NCBI RefSeq assembly: GCF_032362555.1
Contig: NC_083510.1
Location: forward strand, 1,577,501-1,641,500
DNA from: Amyelois transitella
Lineage: Eukaryota; Arthropoda; Insecta; Lepidoptera; Pyralidae
DNA length: 64,000 nucleotides
Reading direction: 5' to 3'
The notes under the pieces were generated by a model that saw nothing but the letters and a program-made list of their open reading frames with translations, was not told the origin of the DNA and searched no databases. Numbering within the stretch: position 1 is the stretch's first letter; each line of letters starts with the position of its first letter. Positions 35,301-56,700 of this stretch are shown here, piece after piece. The position numbers were made by a program, and so were the translations under genes.

Positions 35301-38300
35301 CAAACTTGGGATTCTTTTTTTAGGCGATGGGTTAGCAACCTGTCACTATTTGAATCTCAATTCTATCATTAAGCCAAAATGCTGAATGTGGTCGTTCAGT
35401 CTTTTCAAGACTGTTGGCTCTGTCTACCCCACAAGGGATATAGACGTGACCATATGTTTATGTATGTTTTATGTTTTCCAGTGCTGCTCGTCCCTGGCTG
35501 TGCTATGCTACCTGCTGGAGGAAGACCTGACGGAAATCATCGAGATCATGCGCATGTACGAGACCATCTTCAGTGGCAGCTATTTGAAGGTGACATTTTA
35601 TCTTCAATATTCATGTATTGACGTAAGGACAGGAAGTCTGTCTGACATTAATTTCACACCAATTTGTCTTGGTGATTTTTATGCACTATAGATATGGCCG
35701 TTTTATACTTTACACGGTTAAAACACACGACAATAATATTGGTCTTTGAGTAGAATAGGTACTGGGAATTGTGGATATGATCCTTGCTCAAGTGAAGTGA
35801 TAAAGTAATCTCTTTATTACAACTGACTAAAATGTTTATTTATATTATTGTTTATAATAAAGTACAGTATCATTGAGATGGATTTTAATTCAAAATTTTT
35901 GTAGCTTACTTTGCGGATTATGAACACATATAATGAATCCAAAATCATTTGACGGTTTGACGGCCTCTGTGGCGCAGCGGTAGTACGCTTGTCTGTGACA
36001 CCAGAGGTGCTGGGTTCGAATCCCGGCCAGGGCATGATGAGAAAAGAACTTTTTCTGATTGGCCTGGGTCTTGGATGTGTATTTATATAAGAAGTATTTA
36101 TTATAAAAATATATTATATATATAATTAAGTACCCGAAACCGCCGAGCTTGTATGAAGAGAGTTATGAATGTGGATGAAGCGAAGGAAGTATGCAGAGAT
36201 CGTGGCAAGTGGAAAGAGGTATTCTCTGTCTATCCCTCCGGGAAAGAGGCGTGATTTTTATGTATGTATGTATAAAAATATAGTATCTCGTAACAAACAC
36301 AAGTCTCGAACTTACTTCGAGCCTTCGAGGCTAACTCAATCTGTGTAATTTGTCCCGTATATATATTAAATAAATATATACGGGACAAATTACACAGATT
36401 GTTTTTTTTTTAATTTATTCACATTTTTTTTTACTTTTCAGGGCGACGGCAGCGTCAAAGTATCGGGCGCTGTGATAGAGGAAGGCAATTGGCACGCGGC
36501 CGCCGTGGACGGCTGGGCGCTGCTGCTGACGCTGCTGCCCGCGCCGCACGCCCGCTCCGTGCTGCTCTCGCAGCCGCCCAGCTTCGCCCGCCTCGGGGAG
36601 CTGCTGGAGGCGGCCAGTCTCGAGGTATGTACTCATTGCTGTATCCCTTACGGAGTAGACAGAGCCAGTATCGAAAAGACTGAAGGGCCATGGTCAGCTC
36701 TATGTTGGTACTGTTGTGAATTTTATGCAAATGAAAAATTACAATGAGACAAAAATATTACCCCATAAAATTACCAATTTCATTAGCCGCAATGTCCGAT
36801 TGAAATTAACCACTGAATTATCCTTCATGATTATTTCTATTTTCCTTTTTTGTGCGGAGTATGTATTTAGAACTGCACATCTTGTTTGCACTTTTCCATT
36901 TTTTTTTGGAAATACCCGTAGACTGAATCCCTGAAAAGGAACTAGTTTAATTAACCTATGTATGAAGTGTATGTTACTAATAACGCCTAATATTTGCAGG
37001 TCCGTATGGCGGCCGGCGGAGCCCTGGCCATGGCTCACGAGTGGACCTCCGCAGACGACGAGGAGCCTCCGTATTTAGAGGCGGTGCTGCCTCGCCTCGA
37101 ACAACTGGCGAGGGATTCACAGAAATTCCGCGCCAAGAGGGATAGAAAGCTGCAGAGGGCTACTTTCAGGGATATACTGAAGTATTTTGAGGTAAGTTTT
37201 GGTTGGGAATAGGTAATTTATTTAATTTGTAACGAAGTGAAAATAATGAATAAACAATATATTTTTTATCTTGCCGAAGCAACGCGTATTTTGTTACGTG
37301 CTGTCCAAGTATAAAAAAAATATTAATGTTATTATTAAAATGAAGTAAGGAAAATGACAATGGATTAACGATATATTTTTTTATCTTGTCAAAGCACGTT
37401 AAAGTCTTCCTTTTTTAAAAAAATAATGCCAGTAAACTAACGTGGGAATCCAGTAAAGTTTTTAATTTTTTCAAAAGTGGAACACATTACTAGTACATAC
37501 TTAATTATTATTATATGCCAGTCTTTTCGAATTTCCAACAGGGCCAACAACATTAGTTTTTTTTTAAATCATTTAAAAATGGAACCATATGTTTAACAGG
37601 AGGACGAGGTGCCATCGGTTCGCATCCGCGTCGGCGCCGAGAGCGTGATCTGCGACACGTGGCGCGCGCACGCCGCGTACGGCGCGCTGGCGGCCGCGCT
37701 CGGCGGCGGCGGGCTGGCGGCCGCGGCGGGGCACTGCGGCGCGCTGCGGGCCGCGCTCGGGCTGCGCGAGCCGCCCGCGCGGCTGCAGCTGCCCGCCGCG
37801 CGCCTCAACAAGCTGCAGCGGGTGAGTGTGTCACTGTAGCGGCCGGCCACTGCGGCGCGCTGCGGGCCGCGCTCGGGCTGCGCGAGCCGCCCGCGCGGCT
37901 GCAGCTGCCCGCCGCGCGCCTCAACAAGCTGCAGCGGGTGAGTGTGTCACTGTAGCGGCCGGCCACTGCGGCGCGCTCATACCTACATCCTTTATATTAG
38001 CTTAGGTGAGGCGGTGGTTTGACAGACGCCGCGTTCGGGACTTAGTGCCGAGCTTACCACAGCTTACAACATTGAAACTTGATAAACTGCAGAGGGTGAA
38101 TACAATTATAAATATGCTATAGCCCGCGCACTACGCAAGGTATGAAATCACCTTACATACCAACTATTTGTCCAGCCCCTAGCATCATAATAGAAAGCGA
38201 AATAGCAATGGCTTTTCGCGCGATAAAAACGGCGTCGCGCGTGTCTTGCTACGGGGTTTGGCATCGGAATTTGTCATCTTAAACCCATAAATTGATAAAA

Positions 38301-44723: not shown

Positions 44724-47700
44724 CTATTATTAAACCACAAATTTGAAGAATTTTCATACATACACATATCCGTGTGGTTCCCGGCACCAGTACAAAAAAG
44801 AATAGGACCACTCCATCTCTTCCCCATGGATGTCGTAAAAGGCGACTAAGGGATAGGCTTACAAACTTGGGATTCTTCTCTTAGGCGATGGGCTAGCAAC
44901 CTGTCACTATTTGAATCTCAATTCTACCATAATCCAAACAGCTGACTGAAACGTGGTCTATCTCTCTAGTCTCTAGTTTTTACAAGACTGTTGGCTCTGT
45001 CTACCCCACAAAGGATATAGACGTGTGTATGCAAGTATCCTCACCAGAGTGGGAAGACCTAGACGAACGTATCTTGAACAAATTAAGGACGTCCTGGTAA
45101 AGGTCAGGCAGGTCAAAAGTACCCGAAACCGCCGAGCTTGCATGTAGAGAGTTATGAATGTGGATGTGGCGAGGGAAGTGTGCAGAGATCGAGGCAAGTG
45201 GAAAGAGGTAATCTCTGCCTACCCCTCCGGGAACGAGGCGTGAATAGAATAGAATAGATTTATTTTCAAAATTGGATACAAGATATCACTTATTGACGTC
45301 AAATCACTTAAATCTAATTATAACTACTACCGCTTCCAAAGCGCATGTGTAGAAAAAGCGGCGGAACAAACTACACTGCAGCATTTTCATCGGACGTCAA
45401 TGTACAAATATAGATCTCTTAAATCTAAATCATGGACGAATGCACATTGGCTACATTAAAAAACATGAATGAATGTAGAACTAGTTATTCCAATACGAAT
45501 TTTATCTATACTTATATTATAAAGCTGAAGAGTTTGTTTGTTTGAACGCGCTAATCTCAGGAAGTGCTGCTTCGAATTGAAATAATCTTTTTGTGTTGAA
45601 TAGACCAATTATCGAGGAAGGCTTTAGGCTATATAACATCACGCTGCAACTGTAAGGAGCGAAGAAATAATGGAAAATGTGAAAAAAAAACACGGCGAAA
45701 ATTATTCACCCTTGAGGGCTGCAATGATGCCCAAAATAACTATTCCACGCGGACGGAGTCGCGGGCACAGCTAGTGTATGTGTGTATGTATGTGTGTGTG
45801 TATGTGTCCTCACCAGCTGCCGCTGCATGACGGCGATGGGCGGCGTGCCGTGGTGGCGCGCCACGCGCCGCTCGATGAGGTACGACACGTACTCGTCGTA
45901 CAGCAGCCGCAGCAGGTGGAACGAGCCGAACGACGCCGCCGACCTGGCGTGGCGTGGCGCTAGTTATACTTGTTGATAAGCTGAGTACGGCCTCTGCGTA
46001 GTGGCCTGAGCGTGTCGTGGCGCTAGTTATACTTGTTGATAAGCTGAGTACGGCCTCTGCGTAGTGGCCTGAGCGTGTCGTGGCGCTAGTTACAGCTATG
46101 ATAAGCTAAATACGGCCTCTGCGTAGTGGTAGTACGCTTGTCTGTGACATTTGAGGTCCCGGGTTCGAATCCCGGCGAGGGCATGATGAGGAAAGAACTT
46201 TTTCTGATTGGCCTGGGTCTTGGATGTTTATCTATATAAGTGTTTATTGTAAAATATAGTATCGTTGAGTTAGTATCTCGTAACACAAGTCTCGAACTAA
46301 TTTCGAGGATTTGTCTCATATAGGTTTATATATTTTTAATAGTTGACACATAAGTGAGTCTTTTAAAGTTATTGTTTGGAACGGTAATGTCGGATTATAA
46401 ACAAGAAAGGTCGTCGCTTTTAACTTTTGAAGTTTGAGTTTGGAATGACCCGTCACTATTATTCCCACTTATTCAAATATAACAATACAGTGATTCGAAT
46501 TATAAATTTTATATATTCAATTTTAACCGCGCTTCAGAGCCATTCAAACTTCGCAAAGTAGTCTGCAAACAAACATGACATCTTGTAACAAACCAAAAAG
46601 ACAAATAGTTTAAAAAACTATAACTGGCAAACGCAAAACAAGCCACTGCGATCAATTTAAAATTGAAAAAAAAAAGAAAAATAAACGTAAACATATTTGA
46701 ATGTGGAACTGGCAAACACAAAAAAGCCACTATCAAAAAAATTCGAAAAAAGAACGTTAATAAATTTGAATGCGGAACCTGAGCGTGAGCTCGCGGATGA
46801 CGAGCGAGGAGTAGAAGGACCAGTCGAGCAGCAGGCGGCGCGCGCGCGCCGTGAAGTCGGACCGCGCGGCGTGCGGCGCCAGCGCGCCCGCCACGCAGCG
46901 CTCCAGCCACGCCGCCCACTGCTCCAGCGACGCGCCGCGCCCCAGCGTCGCCTGCCGGGACCATTATAATTATTATACTCAAATTGATACATATATGGAG
47001 CGCAATACATACAATATGTGTGTGTCATTATCATAATATAACCACGAAGAAATATACGTGTCATACTCCCGACAGGACTCGCGCACGCTCGCCACAAGGA
47101 GCGTGCAAGATGGTCTCAGTCAGATATCACGCGTGTCAAACGTCACGTGTTTCAGACGTCATGAGTTTTAGTCGTTATGTCTGACATGACGTATCTCATA
47201 CGTACATGTATCAGACGTCCTATATAGCATTACCTATTATGAGCTAGATAGCAGGAGACATTTTGTATTTGGATTTTAAGTTTAGTGTTCTTTATATTAA
47301 GGCATCTATTTCATTCAGTTTTTATTCAGTTTGATTACGCTGCATGTTGCGCTATTATACGTCATCGAATATTGCCGCGACCACTTTTAACGTGGTAATT
47401 TAGTAAAAAGGGGAAAGGTCGGAGTGGGAAGACCTAGACGAACGTATCTTGATCAAATTAAGGACGTCCTGGTAAAGGGTCAAAAGTACCCGAAACCGCC
47501 GAGCTTGCATGAAGAGTTATGAATGTGGATGAAGCGAAGGAAATATGCAGAGATCGTGGCAAGTGGAAAGAGGTAGTCTCTGCCTTCCCCTCCGGGAAAG
47601 AGGCGTGATTTTATGTATGTATGTATGTATTAAGTACATACAATTACCTAATAATGTAACAATAAACAATACCTTGAAATCGACTTCCAGCCGGTGCGCA

Positions 47701-50700: not shown

Positions 50701-53700
50701 AATTCTTCTTTTAGACACGTCACGTCACTATATGATTGTCAATTCAAAAATTAATCCATCCAGCTGAACTGGCCATTGAGACTTAAAGATTTCACTCGGA
50801 TAGTATTCAAACTAATGTACGTAATATCGCCCATTGTATCAACATTGTTTGTTTGTTTAAATAAATAGAAAAGGTTCGACTGGCTAAGAATGCCTTGTGG
50901 CATTAAGTCCACCTGTTGTACATTTTATATGCATAAATTTTAAATAAATAAATAAATAAAAATTTAAAAAGATGTGACACATGTATTGTGTTGTATTGTA
51001 CCTGCGTGAGTTGCGGCGGTATGGGCCGCAGTACGTCGGGCAGCAGCAAATCCACAGCGGCCTGGTATAGAACCAAGTCGGCACGTCGCAACCAGTTCGC
51101 CACGTCCGCCCTGGTAATATCAAAACATTTATTTGTGGCAACACTATATTAAAACAACATAAAAAACAAAAGAACAAGTTCAATCGTCCAGGATTATCGA
51201 TTTGACAAATACCGAAGACAGCCGTCTTCATCCCGACTTTGGTCTGGGTTGTATCCTCACCACTCTGGAGAGGAGTTCGGGGTGCGCCTTTGACCATGGA
51301 CGGTTTTTACACGAAGCGACTCCCATCTGACCTCCGCAACCTTTGCAGGGGAATTTGGATCGATCATGGTTGCACATTCAGTTGCCTGAATGTGCAGATT
51401 TCCTAACAATGTTTTCCCTCACCGTTAGAGCATTTGTTGGTCTTCAAACCAAAGTACATTACTTCGACAATATTCTTTCGCACATGTCCGAGGTGGGATT
51501 TGAATTTGTGCCTTTTATGCGCATCATGCATTTTAACCGGGCACCTTACCGATTAGACCACCCACGCTATACTCACATGTTATTAGTAGGATTCAGATTT
51601 CTATATGACTTGTAATTCTGCACAATGTTACGGCCATGTCATAGGCGTAGAAAAAAAAGGCGAACAGAGTGTGGTTTAAAAAAAAGTGAAGCATCGTAAT
51701 GGCGGCGTTGTACGCATGTGTGAGTGACAGTACTTGCCCGTTCGTTGAATAATCTATGACGTAATCGCGACCGACTGCCTACTATTGGTGAGTGTGTGCG
51801 TGAGGCGTGTACATTATACAGTGGGGCGGCATATTACTACTGCCTTTTATAGCAGTAAATAAATAATAAATATATATAGGACAAATTACACAGATTGAAT
51901 TAGCCTCGAAGTAAGTTCGAGACTTGTGTTACGAGATACTAATTCAACGATATTATATTTTATAATAAATACTTATATAGATAAACATCCAAGACCCAGG
52001 CCAATCAGAAAAAGTTCTTTTCTCATCACGCCCTGGCCGGGATTCGAACCCGGGACCTCCGGTGTCACAGGCAAGCGTACTACCGCTGCGCCACAGAAGC
52101 CATCATTGGTGAGAGTGTGTGCGTGAGGCGTGTACATTATACAGTGGGGCGGCATATTACTACTGCCTTTTATACTGCCCTGGTATAACTAAAATGCCGT
52201 TATCTGCCAAATCCTTGTTTTAAGTAAAACGTCAAAAATGCGGTAAAAATTTAAACTGATGCCATTCATCAATGAGAACGCCTATTTATGACTTAAAGGT
52301 ACCAAAAAGTCGTATATACTGCCGAAAGATATTTTTTTTCTTATTCTACTGGTAAAAAAGGTGTAAATCCTGATGTCAGATAACGGCATTTTAGTTATAC
52401 CACGGCAGTATAGCAGTAGTCAAACTTCGTATGCCTTATTTTCTACGTGCATGATTGTGGCCAGCTGTAAAATAAGGCTCTATACACAATCTGACCTGGT
52501 GGCGAGCCGGGCCAGCGCGCGGCGACACAGGCCGCCCCGCCAGAAGGCGCGGCGCGCGCGCTCCACGGCGCCCGTGTCCAGCGCGCTCACGGCCTCCAGG
52601 AACTCCACGCCGTGCGCCCTGACAATGTGTTGCTCAACTAAGGCTTAGGCTTCTTGGTGGACAAAGAATAGTGAGAAACGGCTCGATATTGTTTATGATT
52701 GTTCCATTTGTTGCTGAACTAAGGCTTAGGCTTCATGGTGGACAAAAAATAGTGAGAAACGACTCGATAATGTTTATGATTTCTGGATTGTTCCTGAAGT
52801 ACTCTCAAGATCCAATAAAGAAAGATGGTTCTCGATTGTTTTTACTCCTATACTTCATAGTGGACAATGCGAAAAGACTCAATAATGTTTATTATTTACC
52901 GAATTGGGATTGAAATAATCTCTTTCTAGATCCTATAGGGAAAGAAGGTTCTAGAAGCGCGCGCTTTATAACGTTCATGTCCAGCTTCTTCCATCTTCTC
53001 AAACTTAGGCTTCTCTCATGGTGGACAAAAACTGATTGGAAAATGCTCAATAATGCTTATGATTCATTAGGTTGTCACTGCAATACTCTGCGTCAAGAAA
53101 ATTAGTTGCTAATAATTTTTAATTACTACGAGTAGAATGAAAATGAGACTTTGTACGTTCAATAGAGCAAGATGGTTCAAGAAAGGCGACGTAAAAAACT
53201 TTCTACCCACTTTTCTCCGATGGGACCGGATATTTCTAGAAGACAGCTACATTTTGGTAAGTTATTTTAGCCAATGATAGACTTAAAACTGTTTAAGTCT
53301 ATCATTGGCTAAAATAACTTTTAATTTTCCCTTCCGACCGATGATATAATTACCTATGATGATCTCTCAGAGCTTCGATGGCCGAAGCGGGAACATCTTC
53401 GGGCAGATCTTCCACCACCAGCTCGGGCGGCTCGGGCGCTGTGATGGGGCCCAGGAACTGCCTGTGTGCGAGCCCCGCCAGGCCCGCCGGGGTTGACTCC
53501 GCTTCGCGTTCACGGGGCTCCTAGCAATATCAATCAATTTGTAACTATAAGAAGATACAAATGTAGGAAACATAATATTTAAAAGTCATTAATCACATAC
53601 GATGTTAAGCTGCGTACACTCGGTGTGCCACGAATGCCAAAGAGAGCAGAGGTATTGGCGATCGCCATACCCACCAGAAAATAATCTTTATTTGTATCAC

Positions 53701-56700
53701 TACAACACAAACTTAGGTTTGCGAAACCCTATTGGTCGACGCCCGTTGTGTACGAATTTTTTTTCATATTAGTTATAAATCATGAAATGAAAATTTACAC
53801 CAACAGTTCTAAAACTAGTAGGTACATAAGTAGCGGTGGATGTAACTTTCAAGACCTCAATATTATAATTTATTCACCACATCCTTGGGTAAGTTTAATG
53901 TTACTAATGGCACATCAAACTTTATTATTTCAACTTTTAACCCAGCTTTTAACAACTTACTGCAAATTCTTCTTCGGTTTCTAATGATATATATATATTT
54001 TTAATATTAACACTTGCCTGTTGATCCGATATCTCCCCTTTATCGTCGCCCATATCCTGCCTGGGCGGGGAATCATTGACATTCGCCTTCGCCCTGATGC
54101 CGTAGTAATGGTACTTGGAGTTCCCCCTGGTGCCCAGCCTCCTGGTCCGCAGCCCGATGAAGACGGACCGGATGAGTTTCCCGAAGGAGGCCGCGTTCAC
54201 CGGGTCCAGCCGGTGGGAGGTGCAGTGGCGCAGGTAGTGGGCGTACAGTGTGGAGCGGGGGAGGGAAACGCCTGTGTGCATAACGTTTTGTTAGTGACAA
54301 TTGACGTGTATGAGCTTAGGAGGTTAAGTCGTGAAAGCGTCATACAAAATTAATTAGTCGAATAGGGATGATGACAATAATATATTTTAGTTAATAACAT
54401 AGTAGAATACACGTAATTAAATACACAACGTTTATTGCTGATTTTAATTTTGACGCCATAAATGTTTTATATTCATTCAAAAAACGATAGGAAAGTAATT
54501 TTAAAAATTCAAAATTAGCAAACAAAATTTTATGAAATTAGTGATAAATAATATATAGAACATCTATTATTTAGGCATCATATACACAAATGCAATGGCG
54601 AAAAAATTGGGTTCATGACGCAAGCAAGAAACGCAGATGTGACGTCATTTAGTAGTGTTTTATATGAGGCATTTTGGACTCGCCCAAATATCTCAGGCAG
54701 TTTTTTGTTTATTGATGGCAGTCTCGTAGTGGTCGAGCAGCCACTGCGCGGCGGCGGGCGCTGTGTCTGCTACAGGAGACATGATGCCACACTCACCCTC
54801 GGCAGTCTCGTAGTGGTCGAGCAGCCACTGCGCGGCGGCGGGCGCTGTGTCTGCTACAGGAGACATGATGCCACACTCACCCTCGGCAGTCTCGTAGTGG
54901 TCGAGCAGCCACTGCGCGGCGGCGGGCGCTGTGTCTGCTACAGGAGACATGATGCCACACTCACCCTCGGCAGTCTCGTAGTGGTCGAGCAGCCACTGCG
55001 CGGCGGCGGGCGCTGTGTCTGCTACAGGAGACATGATGCCACACTCACCCTCGGCAGTCTCGTAGTGGTCGAGCAGCCACTGCGCGGCGGCGGGCGCTGT
55101 GTCTGCTACAGGAGACATGATGCCACACTCACCCTCGGCAGTCTCGTAGTGGTCGAGCAGCCACTGCGCGGCGGCGGGCGCTGTGTCTGCTACAGGAGAC
55201 ATGATGCCACACTCACCCTCGGCAGTCTCGTAGTGGTCGAGCAGCCACTGCACGGTGGCGGGCGGCATGCGCGGCGGCTGTGGAGCCTCACGAGCAGGAG
55301 TCGCCGGCGACGAAGCCGTTTCAGCCTCCTCGCCTGCCACCTATACAGGGCATGATATAACATAGGTATATCAAAAATAATGGAATCAAAAAGTATACAG
55401 GGCGAGCGAAAACGTCACAATGGGAAAGCATAAAAAAGAGCAAAGTGTTTGAATTCTATGCAATTCCATGATGCCCTCAAAATTGCAAGAAAGGGGTAAC
55501 CAGAGGGTAATTAATATATAGAGAACTAGCAGTGAAAGGTGCGACAGGAACACGCAAGATGGAGAAAGTATTGTGTATTCTGATTAATGTAAGCTTACTC
55601 AAAAAAGTCGTAAAAGGCGACTAAGGGATAGGCTTATAAACTTGGGATTCTTCTTTAAGACGATGGGCAAGCAACCTGTCACTATTTAAATCTCAATTCT
55701 ATCATTAAGACAAACAGCTGAACGTGGCCTATCAGTATTTTCAAGACCGTTGGCTCTGTCTACCCTGCAAGGGATATCGACGACATTATTTATTTATTTA
55801 TTTATTCAGTTCACCAACAGTCGATGCAACAGTAAATACAGAGATTATACATACAATAAGATTCGTTCTATTTGCTCGACCAATTACAGGTAAACCCAGC
55901 ACGCTATGGGGAACAATGCGTGTTTAATTTTAATTCTTACTGATAATGTTAAGTACCTATCTACCTTTTTGTTAGTATTAAGTTTATTGTGGTGCAAATA
56001 GAAACATTATATGTATGTATGTAAGCTCACTCAAAAAAGTCGTAAAAGGCGACTAAGGGATAGGCTTATAAACTTGGGATTCTTCTTTAAGACAATGGGC
56101 AAGCAACCTGTCACTATTTAAATCTCAATTCTATCTTAAAGCCAAACAGCTGAACGTGGCCCATCAGTCTTATCAAGACCATTGGCTCTGCCTACCCTGC
56201 AAGGGATATCAACGTCATTATAAGTATGTATGTAAGCTTTTACTCACCACATGGGGGTAGGCAGAGAACTCGGCAGCGGGCCACGCCTCGGCGGCGGGAT
56301 CGTCAGCCACCGCCGTCACGCTGTACACCGGGTATGACCGTAGCGGCTCGCTGGATGATTTCATTAAATTTATACACACACACATAACGGCCAATAAACT
56401 TGGGATTCTTCTTCTGTGCCGTGTGGTTCCCGGCACCATTACAAAAAAGAATAGGACCACTCCATCTCTTTCCCACGGATGTCGTAAAAGGCGACTAAGG
56501 GATAGGCTTATAAACTTGAGATTCCACTTTTAGGCGATGGGCTAGCAACCTGTTTGAATTTGAACGTGGCCTATCAGTCTTTACAAGACTGTTGGCTTGT
56601 TGGGACTTGTTTATTGTGTTGCTATTATTTTTGAGCAACATAAAGGATACAGTTTATGTTGCAACGAGAAAAGGAAAAATTGAAAAATCGCTGTTCATCC

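Follow-up and report, generated by a model that had tools for sequence, protein, structure and literature searches.

The 3′ end of exon A of the Rfx gene of Amyelois transitella is repeated head to tail together with its 5′ splice site, as five letter-identical 84-bp units and one 80-bp partial copy on the minus strand. We consider it probable that this array arose by a recent, minisatellite-like tandem amplification straddling the border of exon A and its intron, and that it is silent because the first donor is the one used. The array lies in a 64-kb window, the whole stretch of DNA analysed here, on the contig designated C6. Similar arrays of an exon end plus donor were found at five other gene-like places of the genome, and the presence of several donor arrays in one genome is more interesting than the Rfx array alone.

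Structure of the Rfx donor array

The border between exon A and the intron reads AGG/GTGAGTGTGG (the slash marks the border), and this donor recurs five more times at 84-bp steps. The last exonic bases of the six identical donors are 55217, 55133, 55049, 54965, 54881 and 54797. Exon A ends with the sequence for helix 1 and the first base of a Gly codon, and each 84-bp unit is composed of 48 nt of this exon end and 36 nt of intron (Table 1). The sixth copy ends in GAGACTGCC without a further donor. TRF reported the array at 54717-55264 with 6.5 copies, 99% matches and a score of 1082, which is the top score among the 26 rows for the window. Chance origin of the repeat match is out of question. 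The first-pass annotation had described six donors at these positions in an exact 84-bp array, and this was borne out by letter comparison and by TRF.

Table 1. Positions of the Rfx exons, the Rfx array units and the similar arrays. Coordinates without a contig prefix are those of the window.
Feature	Position	Strand	Description
Rfx exon A	55217..55340	-	124 nt; phase 0 start, phase 1 end; identical to deposited protein
Array unit 1	55133..55216	-	donor 0 (GT 55216-55215), 36 nt intron piece, 48 nt exon-end copy
Array unit 2	55049..55132	-	donor 1 (GT 55132-55131); identical
Array unit 3	54965..55048	-	donor 2 (GT 55048-55047); identical
Array unit 4	54881..54964	-	donor 3 (GT 54964-54963); identical
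Array unit 5	54797..54880	-	donor 4 (GT 54880-54879); identical
Sixth copy, truncated	54717..54796	-	donor 5 (GT 54796-54795) at start; 80/80 bases match
Rfx exon B	54018..54271	-	before GC donor (CAG/GCAAGT)
Rfx exons C to I	53520-53354, 52618-52496, 51110-51002, 48844-48653, 47783-47673, 46951-46779, 45943-45814	-	splice model
IFRD array	37723..37977	+	116-bp unit, 2.2 copies; last exonic bases 37821 and 37937
GT92-like array	C11:4999655-5001735		16 donors at 136 bp; 15 identical units and a truncated one
C6 11.42-Mb array	C6:11424810-11425532		8 donors; 7 identical 116-bp units and a last copy with different donor continuation
C17 array	C17:10120675-10123170		18 donors at 146 bp; both ends of array read
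Tankyrase-like array	C30:508800-509700		3 donors about 290 bp apart, diverged; ankyrin exon end

Two bases set the copies apart from the true exon end: counted back from the donor, T is replaced by C at −36 and A by G at −40, so that the copies encode AAAQWLL where the true exon A encodes ATVQWLL. These differences indicate that only the last 48 nt of exon A were copied, with two changes. By the same two bases, donor 0 can be distinguished from donors 1-5 in ordinary short reads. Head-to-tail, high-identity copies of a short unit (84 bp × 6.5) make the array minisatellite-like, and the duplication crosses the exon-intron border, as in intron gain by tandem duplication.

The assembly (327,366,114 bp in 33 contigs) was searched with the Rfx 84-mer and no second location was found. 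A dispersed repeat carrying the unit was therefore rejected. Rfam over 54200-55500 gave a single match, below the gathering score.

Donor use and the Rfx protein

All six donors are in frame with the exon B acceptor at 54271. The first in-frame stop lies 645 nt from the start of exon A and the last donor at 544 nt, which upholds the earlier description of a unit without stop whose donors all join exon B in frame. When exons A to I are spliced at the first donor, the product equals the deposited 'transcription factor RFX3 isoform X2 [Amyelois transitella]' in 461/461 residues; going by the naming convention, we take this entry to be a predicted model. Choice of the intron-proximal donor would mean 54797 and a 544-nt exon, whereas the database protein has the 124-nt exon. 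The protein database was clustered at 90% identity and shows the Rfx cluster by its representative, one of 5 members, so a rare isoform could be hidden.

Residues 38-110 of the three-module isoform were used as query for a protein bearing the 28-aa module, and none of the 1415 candidates scored (E up to 0.001). A second match to the helix-1 motif YE[TVI]A[ED]G was present in 0 of the 120 homologs listed (the best 120 of 2243), and a conserved array is thus unsupported. The exact form YETAEG occurs in 31 of the 42 best homolog rows, which were taken as lepidopteran, and 30 of those 31, including A. transitella's own, read ATVQWLL; copy 0 is therefore the ancestral one. As far as these proteins reach, the array appears to be private to A. 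transitella. The protein comparisons favour the first donor as the one probably used.

In the first-donor model the RFX DNA-binding domain (PF02257) scores 120.3 bits against a cut-off of 27, and the model matches the whole 76-residue chain of PDB 1dp7 (HRFX1) at 2.9e-39. BCD_RFX (PF25340) is above the Pfam cut-off in three of the exons C to I, three exons having been scanned. An RFX DNA-binding domain with a BCD domain identifies an RFX transcription factor of the RFX1-3 type. For isoforms with 0, 1 and 5 modules, Pfam found one RFX domain each, covering 3-78 of the 79 profile positions at 120.3, 124.7 and 138.8 bits, respectively. The domain is formed with the last helix-1 copy, and the extra copies are N-terminal to it. 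Modules added by distal donors would therefore precede the complete domain rather than interrupt the winged helix, and the first-pass annotation was wrong in this detail when it spoke of a variant in a winged-helix domain.

Similar arrays elsewhere in the genome

As listed in Table 1, the five other places are an IFRD gene, a GT92-like gene, a locus at 11.42 Mb of C6, a locus on C17 and a tankyrase-like gene. In IFRD the second donor is out of frame and is reached only after an in-frame TAG; the deposited protein corresponds to splicing at the first. Comparison with deposited proteins covered Rfx and IFRD of the six arrays. The GT92-like exon was recognized by Pfam at 26.9 bits (cut-off 23). 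For the C6 11.42-Mb and C17 arrays the exons were recognized by an open frame with flanking splice signals, the Pfam matches (a weak DIL domain; a weak TMF family) being below the cut-off. The C6 11.42-Mb unit consists of an exon copy and a 25-nt GT...AG linker. Between the copies of the tankyrase-like array there are TGACCTCACTAACTT-type repeats.

A stop in the coding frame precedes donor 2 in four of the five arrays scanned, Rfx being the exception, and also in the tankyrase-like array. Stops before the second donor in five other arrays indicate that protein length is not what such arrays are retained for. If use of the first donor were not the rule, the genes with a stop before donor 2 would be broken.

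TRF on 20 arbitrarily placed 10-kb stretches found four tandem arrays (period 50-150, at least 85% identity), one of which was an exon-donor array; no arrays were found in 5 further 10-kb stretches. The 25 stretches together thus gave one exon-donor array, the GT92-like one. By the same thresholds the 64-kb window holds 8 tandem arrays, against 4 in the 250 kb arbitrarily placed.

Genome-wide patterns gave mostly single matches. The pattern SSSRGGTGAGTGYS matched 63 places at 45 loci, comprising 2 arrays, those of C17 and the tankyrase-like gene, and 43 single loci (reversed control, 31). The pattern SSSAGGTRAGTNYS matched 241 places with no array among the 100 listed (reversed control, 179); the C17 array fits this pattern and is outside those 100 of the 241. 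The reversed controls of 31 and 179 indicate that many donor-like matches are due to chance. With up to 1 mismatch, TGTCTNCTGTAGCNGNNNNGCG gave 17 matches, 16 of them in the GT92-like array (reversed control, 4), a weak result as the pattern does not fit the Rfx array.

The heptamer CTGTAGC is found in the linkers of the Rfx, IFRD and GT92-like arrays. Such recurrence was seen in 5 of 20000 shuffles, and was noticed after the fact. It is present in the C6 11.42-Mb array by selection, since the search asked for it, and it is absent from the parts read of the C17 and tankyrase-like arrays, both of which were found without asking for it. Among 12 single genome matches to the donor plus CTGTAGC (reversed control, 17), the 6 read had no repeated exon. 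A shared CTGTAGC seed was not built on, given its absence in independently found arrays and the lack of a repeated exon at single matches. The recurrence in the first three arrays is not explained by plain slippage.

Origin of the array and alternative readings

The Rfx, IFRD and GT92-like arrays each end in a truncated exon copy, which suggests that a seed copy of the exon was placed in the intron and was then expanded and homogenised. For Rfx, the truncation of the last copy, taken with the two differences fixed between exon and copies, would mean that a partial copy of the exon end landed 36 nt past the donor. Judging by the identity of the letters, the 84-bp unit may then have been multiplied and homogenised by unequal exchange or slippage. 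Splicing would still take the first, exon-side donor, giving the normal protein and removing the array as intron, as the deposited protein suggests. That the Rfx unit keeps the frame is a coincidence, because similar arrays at other exon ends in the genome do not keep it. Simple arithmetic puts the chance that a unit is in frame and stop-free at about 0.2 per array (1/3 times about 0.56). About 1 in 6 is then expected, and the single open array among the six, that of Rfx, roughly matches this expectation. The data are most simply explained by a mutational amplification of exon ends combined with splicing at the first donor.

Several observations count against this account, the recurrence of CTGTAGC among them. 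In the minigenes of Eperon, duplicated equal donors reportedly tend toward use of the intron-side one, which would favour 54797. Most of the donor-like places searched in the genome are not in arrays.

The first-pass annotation had read the array as a splice-tunable length variant. In this reading several donors are used, and Rfx is made with 0 to 5 extra 28-aa modules before its DNA-binding domain. Six identical donors, all in frame and with no stop before the last, are in accord with it; the single RFX domain of isoforms 0, 1 and 5 indicates that such proteins could be tolerated, and RNA folding of a single unit predicts GTGAGT to be unpaired. Folding of the units gave z of 0.51 for Rfx, 0.19 for IFRD and −2.09 for GT92. 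However, the deposited protein is the first-donor form, the search with module residues scored nothing among its 1415 candidates, and the 120 listed homologs have no second motif. The stops before the second donor in the five similar arrays weaken the reading further. From these comparisons of sequence, splice-tunable isoforms appear unlikely. An artefact of assembly or amplification, with a single unit in the genome, is less likely still. Exactly identical copies would be expected from it, and several contigs have rounded sizes, presumably a trace of Hi-C scaffolding; but the array is inside a 12.7-Mb contig, the true exon and the copies have fixed differences, and the arrays elsewhere differ in unit length and copy number, one of them being diverged.

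We also considered the unit as a small exon. Each copy has an acceptor-like CTCCTGTAG and, except the last, a donor, which together delimit a 57-nt cassette of phase 1 to 1 that joins in frame; its junction would be exon A or an upstream exon joined to CAGACACAG. The 27-nt GT...TAG gap between neighbouring copies is probably too short to be spliced, so inclusion of the cassette needs at least one unit to be skipped. Linkers were compared with the upstream intron for the Rfx, C6 11.42-Mb, IFRD and GT92-like arrays. The linker of Rfx is similar to the end of the upstream intron (ATCATG..CCTGTA; 7 of 2000 shuffles as good), and in that of the C6 11.42-Mb array the upstream acceptor and the start of the exon are plainly present (alignment score 33; 0 of 2000 shuffles). 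The IFRD and GT92 linkers, in contrast, lack this similarity, as 1869 and 1595 of 2000 shuffles scored equally well, and the module search, which covered the same residues, scored nothing. A small exon is thus very improbable.

Beyond Rfx, we tentatively propose, as a view that we hold to be somewhat doubtful, that A. transitella has a recurrent class of donor arrays, with up to 18 donors, in which the 3′ end of an exon and its 5′ splice site are amplified head to tail; the genes concerned are unrelated and probably important. They would survive by reliable splicing at the first donor, through exon definition and contrary to the intron-proximal preference reported from minigene experiments. 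Some linkers would fuse a downstream donor to an upstream acceptor, as a copied and re-inserted small circle of exon DNA would, and the mutational process would be a distinct one. The arrays suggest that this genome tends to a particular kind of amplification at its exon-intron borders.

Among the papers listed by the literature searches, none dealt with exon-donor arrays in Lepidoptera. In minisatellites or VNTRs a short GC-rich unit is likewise repeated head to tail in identical copies, but the Rfx unit differs from them by carrying an exon end and a donor. The closest published event found is in the potato RdRp gene, where a tandem duplication spanning an intron-exon boundary was accompanied by intron gain; this gene also has another, purely intronic 83-bp duplication (PMC4974935). 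As in Rfx, a short tandem duplication crosses the exon-intron border and splice signals are copied. In potato the 3′ splice site side was copied and the new intron is spliced (PMC4974935), whereas in Rfx the donor side was copied, so that there are six donors (a similar array has 18) and nothing indicates a new intron. In intron 4 of DOK7 more than one donor faces one acceptor as in Rfx, and the choice can tilt to the intron-proximal or the intron-distal donor (PMC5585400). SRSF1 is described there as favouring intron-proximal donors. The two DOK7 donors are unequal and 11 nt apart, whereas the six of Rfx are identical, 84 nt apart and nearly equal in their flanks. 'Proximal' in the first-pass annotation meant the exon side, and intron-proximal as used in PMC5585400 is the opposite end.

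The array had also been put forward as a test of donor choice. This proposal stands and is strengthened by the several such arrays in the genome. To our knowledge, choice among equal 5′ splice sites has been studied mainly with artificial minigenes. In A. transitella several natural loci offer 2 to 18 like donors, regularly spaced.

Further repeats were seen near Rfx and IFRD exons in the window. An 81-bp × 1.9 tandem array at 52628-52781 lies about 10 bp upstream of the start of Rfx exon D. A 63-bp × 3 array at 45943-46129 is directly before the acceptor of Rfx exon I and adjoins a SINE-like stretch; by eye, an upstream AG copy in it, if used, would run into TAG. The intronic AAACTGCAGAGGGTGAATAC at 38080-38110 resembles, by eye, the IFRD exon end plus donor, and may be an older decayed copy.
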